This document shows, piece after piece, positions 29,351 to 33,490 of a stretch of DNA of 33,664 nt (position 1 is its first letter; every line of letters begins with the position of its first letter). Made by a program: the position numbers and the translations under genes. Origin of the DNA: Bacteroidota bacterium (lineage in GTDB: Bacteria > Bacteroidota > Bacteroidia > Palsa-948). Under the pieces are notes generated by a model. The model was not told the origin of the DNA, ran no database searches, and was given only the letters and a program-made list of their open reading frames with translations. The DNA lies in assembly GCA_023251675.1 (NCBI GenBank), contig JAHEYJ010000020.1, positions 1 to 33,664 on the forward strand, in the 5' to 3' direction.

Positions 29351-30598
29351 ATGGCTAATCCTAAAAATGTAAAATGTTCATTCTGCGGGCGCGACCAGCA
29401 GGATATCAATGTAATGGTTTCCGGGCTTGACGGCCACATCTGCGATCATTGCGTGGAACAGGCGCACCTGGTGGTGAAGCAGGAACTGAAGGCAAAGGGC
29501 GGAAAGTCGGCTCATTTTGTACTGAACCTCATCAAACCGGTGGAGATCAAAAAACACCTGGATGAATTTGTGATCGGCCAGGATGATGCCAAAAAAGTTC
29601 TATCCGTCGCTGTTTACAATCATTATAAACGCGTGCTTCAGAAACCTAAACGCACCACGGCAAAGGACGATGTTGAAATAGAAAAATCAAATGTTATCCT
29701 CGTCGGCGAGACCGGAACAGGAAAAACACTGATGGCACGAACCATCGCGAAGATCCTGAATGTGCCTTTCTGCATGGCAGATGCGACGGTTCTTACGGAA
29801 GCCGGTTATGTGGGAGAAGATGTGGAAAGTATTTTAACCCGGCTTTTGCAGGTATCCGATTTTGATGTGACGGCGGCAGAAAGAGGAATTGTTTTTATTG
29901 ACGAGATCGATAAGATTTCCCGCAAGAGCGACAACCCAAGCATCACCCGGGATGTATCCGGAGAAGGAGTTCAGCAGGGGTTGCTGAAACTGCTCGAAGG
30001 TTCAGTGGTGAATGTGCCTCCGCAGGGCGGAAGAAAACATCCTGAGCAGAAGATGATCCAGATCGATACTTCCAATATTCTTTTTATCTGCGGCGGCGCG
30101 TTTGATGGAATTGAAAAAATGATCGGAAGGAGAATAAAACCGCAGTCGATGGGCTATTCGGCATCTAAAGAAGGCGATTCGATCGAACGTGAGAATATTC
30201 TTCAGTACATTGCTCCCCAGGATCTGAAAAAATTCGGATTGATACCGGAGCTGATCGGCCGGTTGCCGGTCATTACGTATTTGTCTCCGCTGGATGAAGT
30301 AGCGCTCCGGAAAATACTTACCGATCCGAAGAATGCGCTCATCAAACAATACATGAAACTGTTTGATATGGATGGCGTGAAACTTTCATTCGATGACGAT
30401 GCGTTGGATTTTATAGTAGAAAAAGCAGTGGAGTTCAAATTAGGTGCACGCGGGCTCCGTTCTCTCTGTGAAGGCGTGATGACCGATGCCATGTTTGAAA
30501 TTCCTTCTGAAGGCAAGACGAAAGATCTTCATATCACGCTTGACTACGCGAAGAATAAACTTTCCAGAAGTAAATTGAAACGACTCAAGGCTGCTTAA
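29351..30598 (+). CDS. clpX: ATP-dependent Clp protease ATP-binding subunit ClpX
   Basis: A 415-residue AAA+ unfoldase that feeds substrates to ClpP. The N-terminal zinc-binding domain has C9, C12, C31 and C34. Walker A is GETGTGKT (119-126) and Walker [11 protein letters not shown] (D184, E185). The ClpP-docking IGF loop of E. coli corresponds to M267-G-Y here (SMGYSA). Substrate loop and sensor motifs ([28 protein letters not shown], with the sensor-2 Arg) are intact. Last gene of tig-clpP-clpX; a palindromic repeat begins directly at its stop codon. Confidence 0.97.
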
Positions 30599-30704
30599 TG
30601 TCATTGCGAGCGACTCGCCTTCGCGAAGCGCTTTGGCGGAGCAAGGAGCGAAGCAATCTATCTCTTTGAGATTGCTTCAGTCGTTTTACTCCTTCGCAAT
30701 GACA
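30599..30704. repeat. Long palindromic repeat (TCATTGCGAG...GAAGCAATCT type)
   Basis: TGTCATTGCGA (30599-30609) pairs perfectly with TCGCAATGACA (30694-30704), and GAAGCAATCT (30650-30659) with AGATTGCTTC (30669-30678). The element starts immediately after the clpX stop codon. It contains the stop codon and about the last 15 codons of thiE on the other strand. This sequence type is one I recognise as dispersed in many unrelated bacterial genomes. Placed between convergent genes, it could also end both transcripts. Confidence 0.85.
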
Positions 30705-31359
30705 ATACAAATTTTTTCGTGGCATCACTCTTATCTTCCGCCCGGTTTATCGCCGAAGAAACCGCAACTCCGTGAATACCGGTTTGCATCAAAGGTCCTA
30801 CATCTTCGAGTTTTATTCCTCCGATTGCAATTATCGGAATCCCTCCCCCTTCACCCCTTCCAGAGGGGGATAACTGTTTCATAATTTTTTTTATTCCATC
30901 CAATCCAAGGATAGGATTTAATTTTTCTCTCGTAGTTGTAAAACGAAACGGACCAATTCCGATATAGTTAACACCATTATCCATTAGCCATCTCACATCA
31001 TCCATCGTATTGCTGCTTCCGCCGATAATGAATTTGCTGCCAAGGATCTTTCTTGCCTCTTTCGGGTTCATATCCTCTTTTCCCAGGTGAATTCCGTCCG
31101 CTTCAATTTCTTTTGCGATCTGAACATTATCGTTGATGATGAGTTTAACTCCGTACCGTTTACAAACACTTTTTGTTTCTTCCGCGATCTTCATCCACAT
31201 AGAAAAAAAATCTCTCTCCCCTAATGGGGAAGAGCCGGTGAGGGGGCGTTTCACCCTGAGCTGAACCCAGTCTGCCCCGCCTTTGCAGGCCAACTCGGCA
31301 AGTTCTGCATGAGAAAAATCCGGAAGGTCTTGTGTGATATAATGCAGCCGGGCGATCAT
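30658..31359 (-). CDS. thiE: Thiamine-phosphate synthase, with two repeat-derived inserts
   Basis: A 233-residue TIM-barrel enzyme joining HMP-PP and thiazole phosphate to thiamine phosphate. Family motifs: GADWVQLRVK, VKLIINDNVQIAKEIEADGIHLGKEDM, GSSNTMDDVRWLMDNGVNYIGIGPFRFT, IPIIAIGGI and GIHGVAVSSAI. Two segments do not belong to the family: about residues 39-51 (PLTGSSPLGERDF) and 163-173 (LSPSGRGEGGG). Both are encoded by C/G-rich palindromes. The last 15 residues come from the long repeat at 30599-30704. The catalytic core seems intact, since the inserts fall in surface loops before a helix and before a strand, but activity needs testing. It is the last gene of the minus-strand unit after the carbonic anhydrase. 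Confidence 0.92.
   Translation of the reverse strand: MIARLHYITQDLPDFSHAELAELACKGGADWVQLRVKRPLTGSSPLGERDFFSMWMKIAEETKSVCKRYGVKLIINDNVQIAKEIEADGIHLGKEDMNPKEARKILGSKFIIGGSSNTMDDVRWLMDNGVNYIGIGPFRFTTTREKLNPILGLDGIKKIMKQLSPSGRGEGGGIPIIAIGGIKLEDVGPLMQTGIHGVAVSSAINRAEDKSDATKKFVLSLRRSKTTEAISKR
30841..30873 (-). repeat. C/G-rich palindromic insert A, in thiE
   Basis: The plus strand shows CCCCTTCCAGAGGGG, a short hairpin, beside further C-runs. The coding strand reads L-S-P-S-G-R-G-E-G-G-G in frame (ThiE residues 163-173). Confidence 0.75.
31207..31248 (-). repeat. C/G-rich palindromic insert B, in thiE
   Basis: CTCTCCCCTAATGGGGAAGAG forms a hairpin with one mismatch and is followed by GGTGAGGGGGCG. 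It is read in frame as R-P-L-T-G-S-S-P-L-G-E-R-D-F (ThiE residues 38-51). Confidence 0.75.
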
Positions 31360-31396
31360 CTGTCTGAATCTGTTTTATTCCGTTTGAATCTTACGC

Positions 31397-32035
31397 TCAG
31401 AAATCCAGCTTATAGATGTTGTGCATCTCAGAATTATCACGAACCGTTACATTCAGATCGTTGATCAGTCCGTTGCTAACATCATACACCCATCCATGCA
31501 CATGCGGGCGCTTATGCTTTTCCCATGCGTTTTGGATGATGGAGGTCTTGCAGAGATTGTAAACCTGTTCGATGATGTTTAACTCGGTCAATCTTTTGTC
31601 GCGTGTGCCGGAATTTTTTATTCCATCAAGTTCTTTGTTGTGAAGGCGGTAAACATCTTTTATATTTCTCAGCCAGTTATCGATAACGCCGCCGTAATGT
31701 TTTTTGCTCATCGCAGCCTGGATGCCGCCGCAGCCGTAATGGCCGCAAACGATCACGTGATTCACTTCTAAAATATTTACAGCAAAGTCAAGCACGCTCA
31801 GCATGTTGGTATCGGTATGCACCACCATGTTGGCAATGTTTCGGTGCACGAATACCTCGCCGGACCGTGTATTGGTGATCTCATTGGCCGGCACGCGGCT
31901 GTCGGAACAGCCGATCCAGAATACATCCGGACGCTGGCCTTTGGCAAGGTCGCTGAAGAAAGTTGGTTCTTCCTTTAGTTTTTTTGCAACCCAGTCTTTG
32001 TTTCCCTGAAGAAGCTTGTCGTATAATTTTTCCAT
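31397..32035 (-). CDS. can: Beta-class carbonic anhydrase
   Basis: A 212-residue zinc enzyme interconverting CO2 and bicarbonate in the cytosol. Zinc ligands are C43, H99 and C102. The Asp-Arg pair D45/R47 lies in WIGCSDSRVPANEI, and VFVHRNIANMVVHTD and VIVCGHYGCGGIQAAM are intact. Length and C-terminal WVYDVSNGLINDL fit the E. coli Can-like group. It lies between thiD and thiE, an insertion into an otherwise thiamine-related run. The 70-base gap to thiD contains an inverted repeat. Confidence 0.96.
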   Translation of the reverse strand: MEKLYDKLLQGNKDWVAKKLKEEPTFFSDLAKGQRPDVFWIGCSDSRVPANEITNTRSGEVFVHRNIANMVVHTDTNMLSVLDFAVNILEVNHVIVCGHYGCGGIQAAMSKKHYGGVIDNWLRNIKDVYRLHNKELDGIKNSGTRDKRLTELNIIEQVYNLCKTSIIQNAWEKHKRPHVHGWVYDVSNGLINDLNVTVRDNSEMHNIYKLDF

Positions 32036-32050
32036 GGTCAGATTTTAGCC

Positions 32051-32104
32051 GCTAATTACACGAATTTTTTATAATTTGTTTCATGCTGATTGGTGTAATT
32101 CGGG
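32051..32104. repeat. GTGTAATTCG inverted mini-repeat between thiD and can
   Basis: CTAATTACACGAATT (32052-32066) is answered by ATTGGTGTAATTCGG at the right end. The TTACACGAAT core belongs with the CGAATTACGAAT-like repeats near 5345-5384 and 5833-5864. Confidence 0.5.
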
Positions 32105-32105
32105 T

Positions 32106-32942
32106 CTATATTTTATGATAGCCCAGTAATGTTTTATTGCTCGTTAAAAATTTTGTCACGTAATCCTTTCCTTTGAGGCAGGCACGCTGAAGGTTGTTGC
32201 CGTTTGCGAGGTTTGCCGTGATCGCCGAAGATAATACACAACCGCTTCCGTGCTTTCCGGTTTCTGAAATTTTCTTTGGGCGAAAAGGATACACCTCACC
32301 CCCGTCCCCTCTCCCCAAGGAGAGGGGAGAAGTAAATAAATAATCCTTTCCGAGTTTGCTCTCTCCCTTGTGGGGAGAGTTGGAGAGGGGTGCATGTCCG
32401 CCTTTTAAAAACACGTTGCAGTATTTTGATAATTCCTTTGCACCTTTCATTACGTCATTTTCTCCTGTGAGAATTTTTATTTCATCCGTGTTTGGAGTAA
32501 TGAGGTAAATGTTTTTGCAGAGGTCGGCCACTTTCTTTTTGTCAATGTCATTGTGAATTTCGAATCCGGCGCTGGCTTTAAGAATTGGATCAAAAATGAT
32601 TTTAGATTTTAGATGTTGGATTTTGGAGATTACTTTTTCTAAACCTTCTAAACTTTGCAGCATTCCAACTTTTATATACGGAAACTTAAATTTTTTTGTC
32701 AGCACTTCGATTTGTTTTATGATCTCATCCGTCTCTATCCATTTCACTCCATCAAACTCCGAATCGTTCTGAAAGGTCAGTCCGGTGACCACTCCCATTC
32801 CCAACACTTTGTGCTGTTCAAAGGTTTTGATGTCGGCAAGAACGCCTGCGCCTCCGCTCGGATCAAAGCCGGCAATGGACAAAACGCAAGGGCGTTTTGA
32901 GTTTAAGATTTCAGGTTTAAAGTTTAAAGTTGGAGCAGCCAT
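32106..32942 (-). CDS. thiD: HMP/HMP-phosphate kinase, with repeat-derived segments
   Basis: A 278-residue ribokinase-fold enzyme that phosphorylates hydroxymethylpyrimidine twice for thiamine synthesis. Family motifs: VLSIAGFDPSGGAGVLADIKTF (20-41), GLTFQND, VGMLQS, IIFDPILKASAGF, YLITPNTDE, and HGSGCVLSSAI with the catalytic C235. The start at 32942 overlaps the upstream stop (TAATG); a longer frame to 33062 would lie wholly inside the upstream gene. Residues 5-15, about 106-115, 184-195 and 205-216 read from short repeats, the last two from the C/G-rich palindromes between KGGH and the C-terminal motif. Other genes suggest an active enzyme; the repeats fall outside the motifs. Confidence 0.93.
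   Translation of the reverse strand: MAAPTLNFKPEILNSKRPCVLSIAGFDPSGGAGVLADIKTFEQHKVLGMGVVTGLTFQNDSEFDGVKWIETDEIIKQIEVLTKKFKFPYIKVGMLQSLEGLEKVISKIQHLKSKIIFDPILKASAGFEIHNDIDKKKVADLCKNIYLITPNTDEIKILTGENDVMKGAKELSKYCNVFLKGGHAPLSNSPHKGESKLGKDYLFTSPLSLGRGDGGEVYPFRPKKISETGKHGSGCVLSSAITANLANGNNLQRACLKGKDYVTKFLTSNKTLLGYHKI
32295..32330 (-). repeat. C/G-rich palindromic insert C, in thiD
   Basis: TCCCCTCTCC (32305-32314) and GGAGAGGGGA (32319-32328) form a perfect 10-pair stem around CCAA. It is read in frame as S-P-L-S-L-G-R-G-D-G-G-E (ThiD residues 205-216). Confidence 0.85.
32358..32393 (-). repeat. C/G-rich palindromic insert D, in thiD
   Basis: CTCTCCC (32361-32367) pairs with GGGAGAG (32373-32379). 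A second GGAGAGGGG follows. It is read in frame as A-P-L-S-N-S-P-H-K-G-E-S (ThiD residues 184-195), only nine codons before insert C. Confidence 0.8.
32599..32627 (-). repeat. AATCTAAAATCT-type mini-repeat inside thiD
   Basis: On the coding strand CAACATCTAAAATCTAAAAT carries tandem TCTAAAA heptamers and encodes about residues 106-115 (SKIQHLKSKI). A related AAATCTAAAATCT occurs at 27115-27127. Confidence 0.4.
32899..32935 (-). repeat. AACTTTAAACTTTAAACC mini-repeat at the thiD start
   Basis: The coding strand has tandem ACTTTAA units giving T-L-N-F-K-P-E-I-L-N-S just before the conserved kinase domain. Such AACTTTAAAC strings are typical dispersed intergenic repeats in Bacteroidota. Confidence 0.45.
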
Positions 32943-33490
32943 TATGTTGCAAGGATATTTTTTGCGCAAAGCGATTGTATTTGTTTGAATTTCTCTATAG
33001 GATTTTTGCTGTTCCAGATCGCTCCGAGAACGGCAACGCCTGCAAAACCAATGGTGCGGCAAGCTTCGATTTTGTCTTCATCAATTCCGCCTAGAGCAAC
33101 GGCCTCCCCCCAGCCCCCTCCTTCAGAGGGGGTTTTTTGTTTCTGCAAAAACTGTTTTATTTTTTGCAGGTCGAAGTTTGATTTATAGCCACCTTTAGAA
33201 ATGCTGTCAAAGATTGGGGATATAAAAAAATAGGTTCCCCTTCCTTCGGAAGGGGTTAGGGGTAGGCCTTCTTCCAGTTCTTTTAATGAATGAAATTTCG
33301 GAAAAGCAGAATGCAAAGAAATTTTGTTGCGATGCTTGGAAGAAATTCGCTGAATGAATTTTTCAGTTTCTTCTTTACTGAAATTTAGTTTATGCAATTG
33401 AAATTTTTCCATTCCTGCTTCAAACAAAGAATTTATGATCTCGTGTTCGTTGGGAACAGCAATTGCGGTGGAGATGACGATGAGTTTCAT
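32942..33490 (-). CDS. TenI/ThiE-like protein, with inserts and a possible internal deletion
   Basis: A 182-residue protein of the thiamine-phosphate-synthase/TenI superfamily. The C-terminal half carries the recognisable motifs TYFFISPIFDSISKGGYKS (phosphate loop region) and AVALGGIDEDKIEACRTIGFAGVAVLGAIW. The N-terminal half has FQLHK and RNKISLHSAF. Two segments are palindrome-derived: 75-86 (GLPLTPSEGRGT) and 119-129 (KTPSEGGGWGE). Between ISLH and FHSLKELEE, relatives usually have a further strand and helix (a G-I-H-L segment) that I cannot find, so some 25 residues may be missing; this is from memory. Its start overlaps the upstream stop (ATGA) and its stop overlaps the thiD ATG. A pseudo-enzyme is possible. 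Confidence 0.8.
   Translation of the reverse strand: MKLIVISTAIAVPNEHEIINSLFEAGMEKFQLHKLNFSKEETEKFIQRISSKHRNKISLHSAFPKFHSLKELEEGLPLTPSEGRGTYFFISPIFDSISKGGYKSNFDLQKIKQFLQKQKTPSEGGGWGEAVALGGIDEDKIEACRTIGFAGVAVLGAIWNSKNPIEKFKQIQSLCAKNILAT
33104..33136 (-). repeat. C/G-rich palindromic insert E, in the TenI-like gene
   Basis: CCCCCTC (33114-33120), loop CTTCA, GAGGGGG (33126-33132). It is read in frame as K-T-P-S-E-G-G-G-W-G-E (residues 119-129). Confidence 0.82.
33233..33268 (-). repeat. C/G-rich palindromic insert F, in the TenI-like gene
   Basis: CCCCTTCC (33237-33244), loop TTC, GGAAGGGG (33248-33255), a perfect 8-pair stem. It is read in frame as G-L-P-L-T-P-S-E-G-R-G-T (residues 75-86). 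Confidence 0.85.

Follow-up and report, generated by a model that had tools for sequence, protein, structure and literature searches.

In-frame palindromic repeats of a Bacteroidota lineage are associated with genes for DUF559 (Vsr-like) nucleases, a candidate enzyme for their spread

The stretch of DNA studied here (the window, 33,664 nucleotides) is contig JAHEYJ010000020.1, C197 in our numbering, of a Bacteroidota genome of 3.4 Mb that is assembled in 250 contigs and 96% complete. It contains three thiamine-type genes with six C/G-rich palindromic inserts, A to F, one of which, C, is a near-consensus copy of a repeat family that we call R1. A ThiD search places metagenome assemblies of Bacteroidetes, whose isolate names point to permafrost (palsa) and groundwater, closest among the named relatives. 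All three genes are open reading frames (ORFs) of the minus strand. The gene thiE, encoding thiamine-phosphate synthase (TMP-TENI; 30658..31359; Pfam PF02581, E 2e-49), carries insert A (30840..30870, plus strand, peptide LSPSGRGEGGG, hairpin scan) and insert B (31212..31247, minus strand, peptide RPLTGSSPLGER, covariance model 14.3 bits). The gene thiD, encoding phosphomethylpyrimidine kinase (32106..32942; PF08543, E 1e-52), the product of which matches THI20/ThiD structures in the PDB, carries insert C (32294..32329, plus strand, peptide SPLSLGRGDGGEV, covariance model 59.5 bits) and insert D (about 32357..32393, minus strand, peptide APLSNSPHKGES, hairpin scan). Inserts E (33101..33134, plus strand, peptide TPSEGGGWGEAVA, hairpin scan) and F (33235..33267, minus strand, peptide LPLTPSEGRGT, covariance model 16.8 bits) are located in a TenI-like gene (32942..33490; PF02581, E 8e-8). 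Thus, each gene has two copies in opposite orientations. Exact arms were identified by the hairpin scan for all inserts but B, which was found by eye and weakly by the covariance model. Against the genome consensus model only C scores strongly, F and B match weakly, and A, D and E fall short of E 1 in the same search. All six palindromes are present, in frame and stop-free on the coding (minus) strand, as the initial annotation had stated, and its remark that the rest of the window has no comparable copy was borne out, as no further R1 copy stands there. Its description of the host genes as adjacent needs to be amended, as an insert-free gene, which we take from its sequence to encode a carbonic anhydrase (31397..32035, minus strand, ORF), lies between thiE and thiD.

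We compared the three genes with their orthologs in six sister species (G001 to G006; thiD of G002 is a fragment), and sites A to F are empty in most of them. Site A has no insert in G001, G002, G004, G005 and G006 and a different one in G003 (nucleotide-level view without G002), site B is empty in five of the six and holds a related insert in G002, and site C is empty in all five sister ThiD sequences that span it. Insert D amounts to 27 additional nucleotides relative to each of five sisters. In the TenI-like gene site E is empty in G001, G003 and G006 with other inserts in G004 and G005, and site F is filled in G004 and empty in G001, G003, G005 and G006; two of these sister inserts match the model, at site E in G005 (51 bits) and at site F in G004 (32.7 bits). 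As the six sister species show empty sites, the inserts are lineage-specific. The loops are also foreign to more distant relatives, since none of 27 ThiD sequences has the same two, insert C not being shared by these sequences, and an extra stretch near site C in one of them (L112) is different and non-palindromic. In the predicted ThiD structure (mean predicted local distance difference test, pLDDT, 86.8) insert D takes the form of a loop, in which pLDDT drops below 50 (residues 187-195), and C is located between two strands. An Rfam search gave only a sub-threshold match for insert C (whalefall-1, E 0.05), which we take as chance.

The pattern of insert C, CCCCTCTCC-N4-GGAGAGGGG, was found with up to three mismatches at 25 places in the genome, insert C included, and the reversed control pattern at none. 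Alignment of 17 copies gave the R1 consensus of 36 bp, CCTCACCCCCGGCCCCTCTCC-N4-GGAGAGGGGAG, which consists of a C-rich leader of 12 nt, a 9-bp stem and a 4-nt loop. A covariance model of R1 yielded 75 matches in the source genome at E<=10 (150 of 850 candidates scored), some of them being reverse-strand echoes of one place, so that related palindromes do exist in number elsewhere in the genome. The initial annotation had named two findings that would speak against it, the same loops with non-palindromic DNA in distant relatives and a lack of related palindromes outside these genes, and neither was obtained. At E<=1 R1 was detected in 20 of 30 genomes including the source genome, and all six other species of the genus have it, with 29 to 149 matches each; as at most 150 candidates were scored per genome, high counts are floors. 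The idea that the inserts are ordinary variable loops with C/G-rich DNA by chance, or an assembly artefact, could appeal to the different loop lengths of sister proteins at the insert sites, but is refuted by the control (0 versus 25) and by the same repeats in other assemblies, in named plasmid records and at orthologous sites, and we assign it practically no weight.

Starting from the 30 best loci (29 places, L043 and L052 being a single place, with L047 and L055 flanking a free gene of the DUF559 family described below) we obtained 27 solo copies. Of these, 21 lie within long ORFs without introducing a stop, 12 antisense and nine sense to the element, some of the ORFs being cut by contig ends; three others are near ORF starts (L039, L053, L054) and three in a short or no ORF (L040, L049, L050). 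From their sequences we presume that the host genes include ileS, gpmI, mfd, acs, rlmD, ctaA and queG. The intragenic copies use five of the six frames, the sixth frame of the consensus containing a TGA on direct reading, and the encoded peptide is a short loop rich in S/T-P-G-R/E. Eighteen of the 21 copies, in 17 other genes, entered the comparison with sisters; of the remaining three, window copy C was treated on its own as described above, and L048 and L051 were left out. Their sites were empty or differently filled in sisters, with no clearly empty sister for L032 and L057, and all measured length differences between orthologs were multiples of three. Hence the palindrome is spread genome-wide, is lineage-specific, is open in five of six frames and shifts gene length by multiples of three. 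These dispersed copies and empty orthologous sites support the initial suggestion of a mobile, coding-compatible palindrome and contradict a restriction to thiamine genes. Local spread among the thiamine genes by recombination or gene conversion, suggested by six copies within 2.4 kb, is likewise refuted by copies genome- and genus-wide in unrelated genes and is exceedingly improbable.

The largest gain per site had a median of 24 nt compared with the 36-nt element (one site: +45), and insertion thus seems to be accompanied by the loss of some host bases; divergence of the sisters and later trimming could also account for the shortfall. A target-site duplication, as expected of a miniature element (MITE) derived from an insertion sequence, was not evident by eye in seven alignments of filled and empty sites, the sisters being divergent. 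Two sister genes showed peculiarities. At the R1 site of the source genome in queG, G006 has an in-frame insert HAELVSASGETLKQVQGDSHS (L276), apparently of another coding repeat family, and the G005 ortholog (contig C24, L273) of the amidohydrolase-like gene L038 contains an R1-type insert together with one in-frame TAG in the matched stretch.

The acs gene pointed to a candidate enzyme, because G002 has an element with a DUF559 nuclease gene where the source genome has a single palindrome. The G002 insert adds 471 nt in frame, coding for a palindrome-type peptide, a DUF559 domain (PF04480; 108.5 bits, gathering cut-off 20.6) and a second palindrome-type peptide. DUF559 is present in 21 of the 30 genomes, and we examined 68 of the 88 matches, the others being partial, inside another locus already taken, or left aside. 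R1 density near these 68 domains was 1.49/kb within 150 bp and 0.04/kb beyond 500 bp, a difference of about 40-fold. Among the 12 loci with R1 on both sides at the loosest cut-off seven pairs were inverted with their leaders outward, four were (+,+) and one was (-,-). In a model-free test, the criterion of which was chosen after inspection of the loci, pyrimidine/purine GC-rich hairpins were located within 130 bp of 45 of 66 DUF559 loci, on both sides in 16, as compared with 2/65, 1/63, 0/62 and 2/61 in controls at shifted positions, none of them two-sided. R1 and DUF559 numbers correlate over the 30 genomes (rho 0.78), also when each genus is represented by a single genome (n=24; rho 0.65, p 6e-4), the species not being independent. 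Palindromes therefore adjoin genes for DUF559 endonucleases, which are Vsr-like and of the PD-(D/E)XK type, often as an inverted pair. At one locus (L281, contig C114 of G004) a tandem pair of DUF559 genes is accompanied by three R1-type palindromes on the same strand, at 1332, 1830 and 2397, as if the unit had been duplicated.

Repetitive extragenic palindromes (REPs) are associated with REP-associated tyrosine transposases (RAYTs), and mobilisation of R1 by such an IS200-like Y1 transposase might be suspected, as Y1 transposases occur in six of the seven genomes of the genus and their number correlates with that of R1 over the 30 genomes (0.52, raw). With one genome per genus, however, this correlation was 0.31 (p 0.14), and the partial correlation with DUF559 held fixed was 0.20. 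Moreover, G001 has 29 palindrome matches and no Y1 match, and R1 was found within 150 bp at none of 30 Y1 loci examined in the genus, a few of which are cut by contig ends; three matches lay farther off (a single domain span was applied to every full Y1 locus, which makes these distances slightly inexact). Several Y1 loci have palindromes of their own, and we rejected Y1 transposases as the driver, a role that appears very unlikely. The Y1-flanking palindromes, seen at L012, L097, L081, L083, L087 and L093, are distinct from R1, for example CCACGACCT..AGGTCGTGG, and L093 has six regularly spaced copies of ATGTCCC..GGGACAT.

In 28 of the 68 cases the DUF559 domain shares one reading frame with over 200 aa of further sequence. 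According to Pfam the hosts are leucyl-tRNA synthetase (LeuRS; four), SpoIIE-type phosphatase (five, two near-identical), RecJ (three), MutS, RecG, TsaB-like proteins and MeaB-methylmalonyl-CoA mutase (two each), TsaD, MetH, Acs, CoA-transferase III, a pseudouridine synthase (N-terminal), HsdR and two weak cases. The TsaB label is our assumption from protein length, Pfam assigning the TsaD family, and the provisional tree labels GyrA, Mtase, PP2C and unk correspond in Pfam to MutS, MeaB-methylmalonyl-CoA mutase, SpoIIE-type phosphatase and MetH (L279). Weaker members of the 28 are L302 with masked bases, L309, where DUF559 precedes an ORF with an SpvB-type domain, the near-identical L311 and L312, the latter starting at a contig end, and L300, which is N-terminal in its host. 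A Hint splicing domain was detected neither in the 28 ORFs (Pfam, E<=1e-5) nor in 10 more (E<=1e-8). The occupied LeuRS is complete in G029 and G020 and is the sole LeuRS above the family cut-off; in G019 and G011, where the occupied gene is cut by a contig end, no second LeuRS exceeds it. The insertion point is identical in G029, G019 and G011. The G020 insertion occupies a second LeuRS site and is bounded left and right by R1-type palindromes, and there the source genome has a solo C/G palindrome. For RecJ, TsaD, RecG, MutS, TsaB and the mutase, three to five sister sites each were empty by eye, the occupied proteins being about 131-164 aa longer over the compared stretch.

Two further features of embedded nucleases were noted. 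In the SpoIIE-type phosphatases (L305, L311, L312, L329, L333), which differ in their N-terminal domains, the nuclease always lies in the same conserved position, between the SGDfyW motif and DCTGHGVPGA (the left border in L312 is not visible). The right ends of L310, L315, L318 and L329 are of a second type with the palindrome AAGTCCTYCCC..GGGRAGGATTT, which encodes the linker KVLP(F/I/L)G(E/K)DLG after the embedded domain; a similar peptide occurs in the solo insert L058.

In the DUF559 tree 23 of the 28 embedded domains fall on one side of a branch with support 99/98, found in all 200 bootstrap trees, and no free member is among them; inner forks are partly unresolved because the alignment has few columns. 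All 68 domains agree without exception in five acidic or histidine columns of catalytic type (D, E, D, H, D), and a segment Y-x-T-[TAS] directly precedes the domain in 17 of the 23 clade members and in none of the 45 others. One DUF559 lineage was thus observed exclusively as part of host reading frames, joined by linkers that the palindromes encode and lacking a splicing domain. In a shuffle test on 18 rows of the clade, same-host repeats having been dropped, nuclease relatedness showed a weak dependence on the host protein (70 of 2000 shuffles were as low) and none on the exact site (840 of 2000). We therefore use the term recurrent target sites and rejected strict site-specific homing, as the same LeuRS site is filled in several genomes but relatedness does not track the exact site.

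The association extends beyond the genus and phylum. A DUF559 search of plasmids gave 38 records, of which eight regions were read. In Synechocystis and Deinococcus inverted C/G palindromes lie on both sides of DUF559, the Synechocystis ends being near the R1 consensus, Sphingomonas has a palindrome pair on each side, and the Pseudanabaena gene is flanked left and right by other C/G palindromes; in Sinorhizobium, Azospirillum, Shinella and Photobacterium the palindromes are one-sided. In a sample of 118 genomes of the phylum 61 have DUF559, and among 17 loci read from strong matches the first LeuRS site is occupied in G079, G129 and G057, the second in G106, and MetH in two genomes. Long frames with weak DUF559 scores in this sample, perhaps multidomain proteins by nature, were excluded from the embedded count. 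A viral reservoir was considered as well and dropped, one scan of viral contigs having revealed no relative.

Taken together, these results suggest that the window inserts probably belong, as solo copies, to a REP-like element with a Vsr-like nuclease as its enzyme. At two sites, acs and the second leuS site, a solo palindrome in the source genome corresponds to palindrome-DUF559-palindrome elsewhere, and because of this and the flanking evidence the autonomous unit would be palindrome-DUF559-palindrome. Solo palindromes would be short derivatives of it, or copies moved in trans in the way of REPs and RAYT transposases; the insert L058, in a presumed glcD-like gene, has left-type and right-type peptides without a nuclease and resembles the product of an internal deletion. 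We infer that the repeats are moved by the DUF559 nuclease, which would break DNA at or near the target, whereupon the element would be copied in during break repair, a small number of host bases being replaced. Insertions would persist only where they are in frame and the loop tolerates them. As the palindrome is readable as a flexible peptide in nearly any frame, it would permit entry where a normal transposon kills the gene.

Several observations weigh against this reading. Both the mobility of the element and cleavage by the nuclease are predicted, all window inserts but C depart from the consensus model, and nuclease relatedness does not follow the exact site. No hairpin of the kind described was found on either side of 21 of the 66 DUF559 loci, and four of the eight plasmid loci are one-sided. 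Presence and absence of R1 and DUF559, with one genome per genus, are not significantly associated (Fisher p 0.09): G012, G014 and G022 have palindrome matches without DUF559, and G007, G016, G017 and G026 have DUF559 without palindromes of the R1 model. The palindromes might instead spread otherwise and be mere landing pads into which DUF559 homes. Solo palindromes are more numerous than DUF559 genes in the source genome, at acs and leuS one genome carries a solo palindrome and a different one the full element, and REPs are described as insertion-sequence targets (PMC3733652). However, DUF559 loci of the two-sided kind are flanked by two whole palindromes (7 of 12 inverted) and not by the halves of one, and the sister sites of RecJ, MutS, TsaB, TsaD, RecG and the mutase are empty by eye, not occupied by a solo copy, so that we consider the landing-pad explanation unlikely, although the strongest of the alternatives. 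We see an even chance that the findings describe a type of mobile element that is represented in several phyla. Its Vsr-like nuclease, enclosed by palindromes that can be read as protein in almost any frame, would reside within essential proteins without splicing, its palindromes would also spread alone as in-frame loops, and domains and loops would thus be inserted selfishly into core enzymes.

Intragenic palindromes as such are known, namely Rickettsia palindromic elements (RPEs), which lie in frame within unrelated genes (PMC10969869 and PMC3733652), and intragenic GTAG/CGTC repeats (PMC3733652). RPEs, cited initially as the precedent, are a fair analogy because of their in-frame insertion within ORFs, but they are not the family found here: they are rickettsial and described as about 150 bp long (PMC10969869), and R1 has 36 bp, occurs in Bacteroidota and is nuclease-linked. 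The REP/REPtron system (PMC3733652) shares with R1 the many short palindromes, repeats around one enzyme gene and dispersed copies; here, in contrast, the enzyme is a DUF559 Vsr-like nuclease and not an HUH tyrosine transposase, and most examined copies are intragenic. R1 also lacks the tag that GTAG REPs bear at one end of the stem-loop, its consensus starting with CCTCAC, and does not flank RAYT genes (PF01797), as seen at the Y1 loci. The CGTC repeats of PMC3733652 are short stem-loops, some of them within ORFs and some in Bacteroidetes, with CGTC, TGTC or CCTC at the stem, an 8-9 bp stem from A/T, a 4-5 nt loop and a CCA tail, and reportedly show no association with a transposase gene. R1 resembles them in loop length and CCTC and differs in the 12-nt C-rich leader before the CCCCTCTCC stem, in the stem start and in the tail.

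Regarding the nuclease, the DUF559 proteins share their Pfam domain with NCBIfam PRK09767 and with Caulobacter VsrA, which PMC12907096 describes as a Vsr-like DUF559 protein and predicted mismatch-repair endonuclease. We found no mobile-element or embedded role of DUF559/Vsr-like endonucleases in the literature searched, and no report linking them to palindromic repeats among titles and abstract openings of a literature without most subscription papers or preprints. Inteins and homing endonucleases insert a nuclease domain into the reading frames of conserved proteins, and their sites recur between distant hosts. Embedded DUF559 resembles them in these respects and in its conserved catalytic-type residues. 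Unlike inteins, it has no Hint domain (Pfam), and the added 131-164 aa or so are presumably retained with palindrome-encoded linkers; unlike homing endonucleases, it does not form site-specific nuclease lineages in the shuffle test. Many short palindromic repeats have no known enzyme, for example the CGTC type as described in PMC3733652. Through its tight link to DUF559 a common repeat type, which here adjoins this gene in four phyla, gains an enzyme that can be tested, and a possible role emerges for a widespread domain of unknown function. The link also points to protein evolution via selfish in-frame insertion, including that of a whole nuclease within a genome's only leucyl-tRNA synthetase.

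Finally, two observations concern the surroundings of the window genes. In three sister species (L075, L076, L078) two carbonic anhydrase genes lie beside thiD, as compared with one in the window. After clpX, at 30597-30707, the window contains a second palindromic repeat (TGTCATTGCGAG...TCGCAATGACA), which resembles the TGTC/CGTC type as described in PMC3733652 and provides the C-terminal codons and the stop of the thiE ORF.

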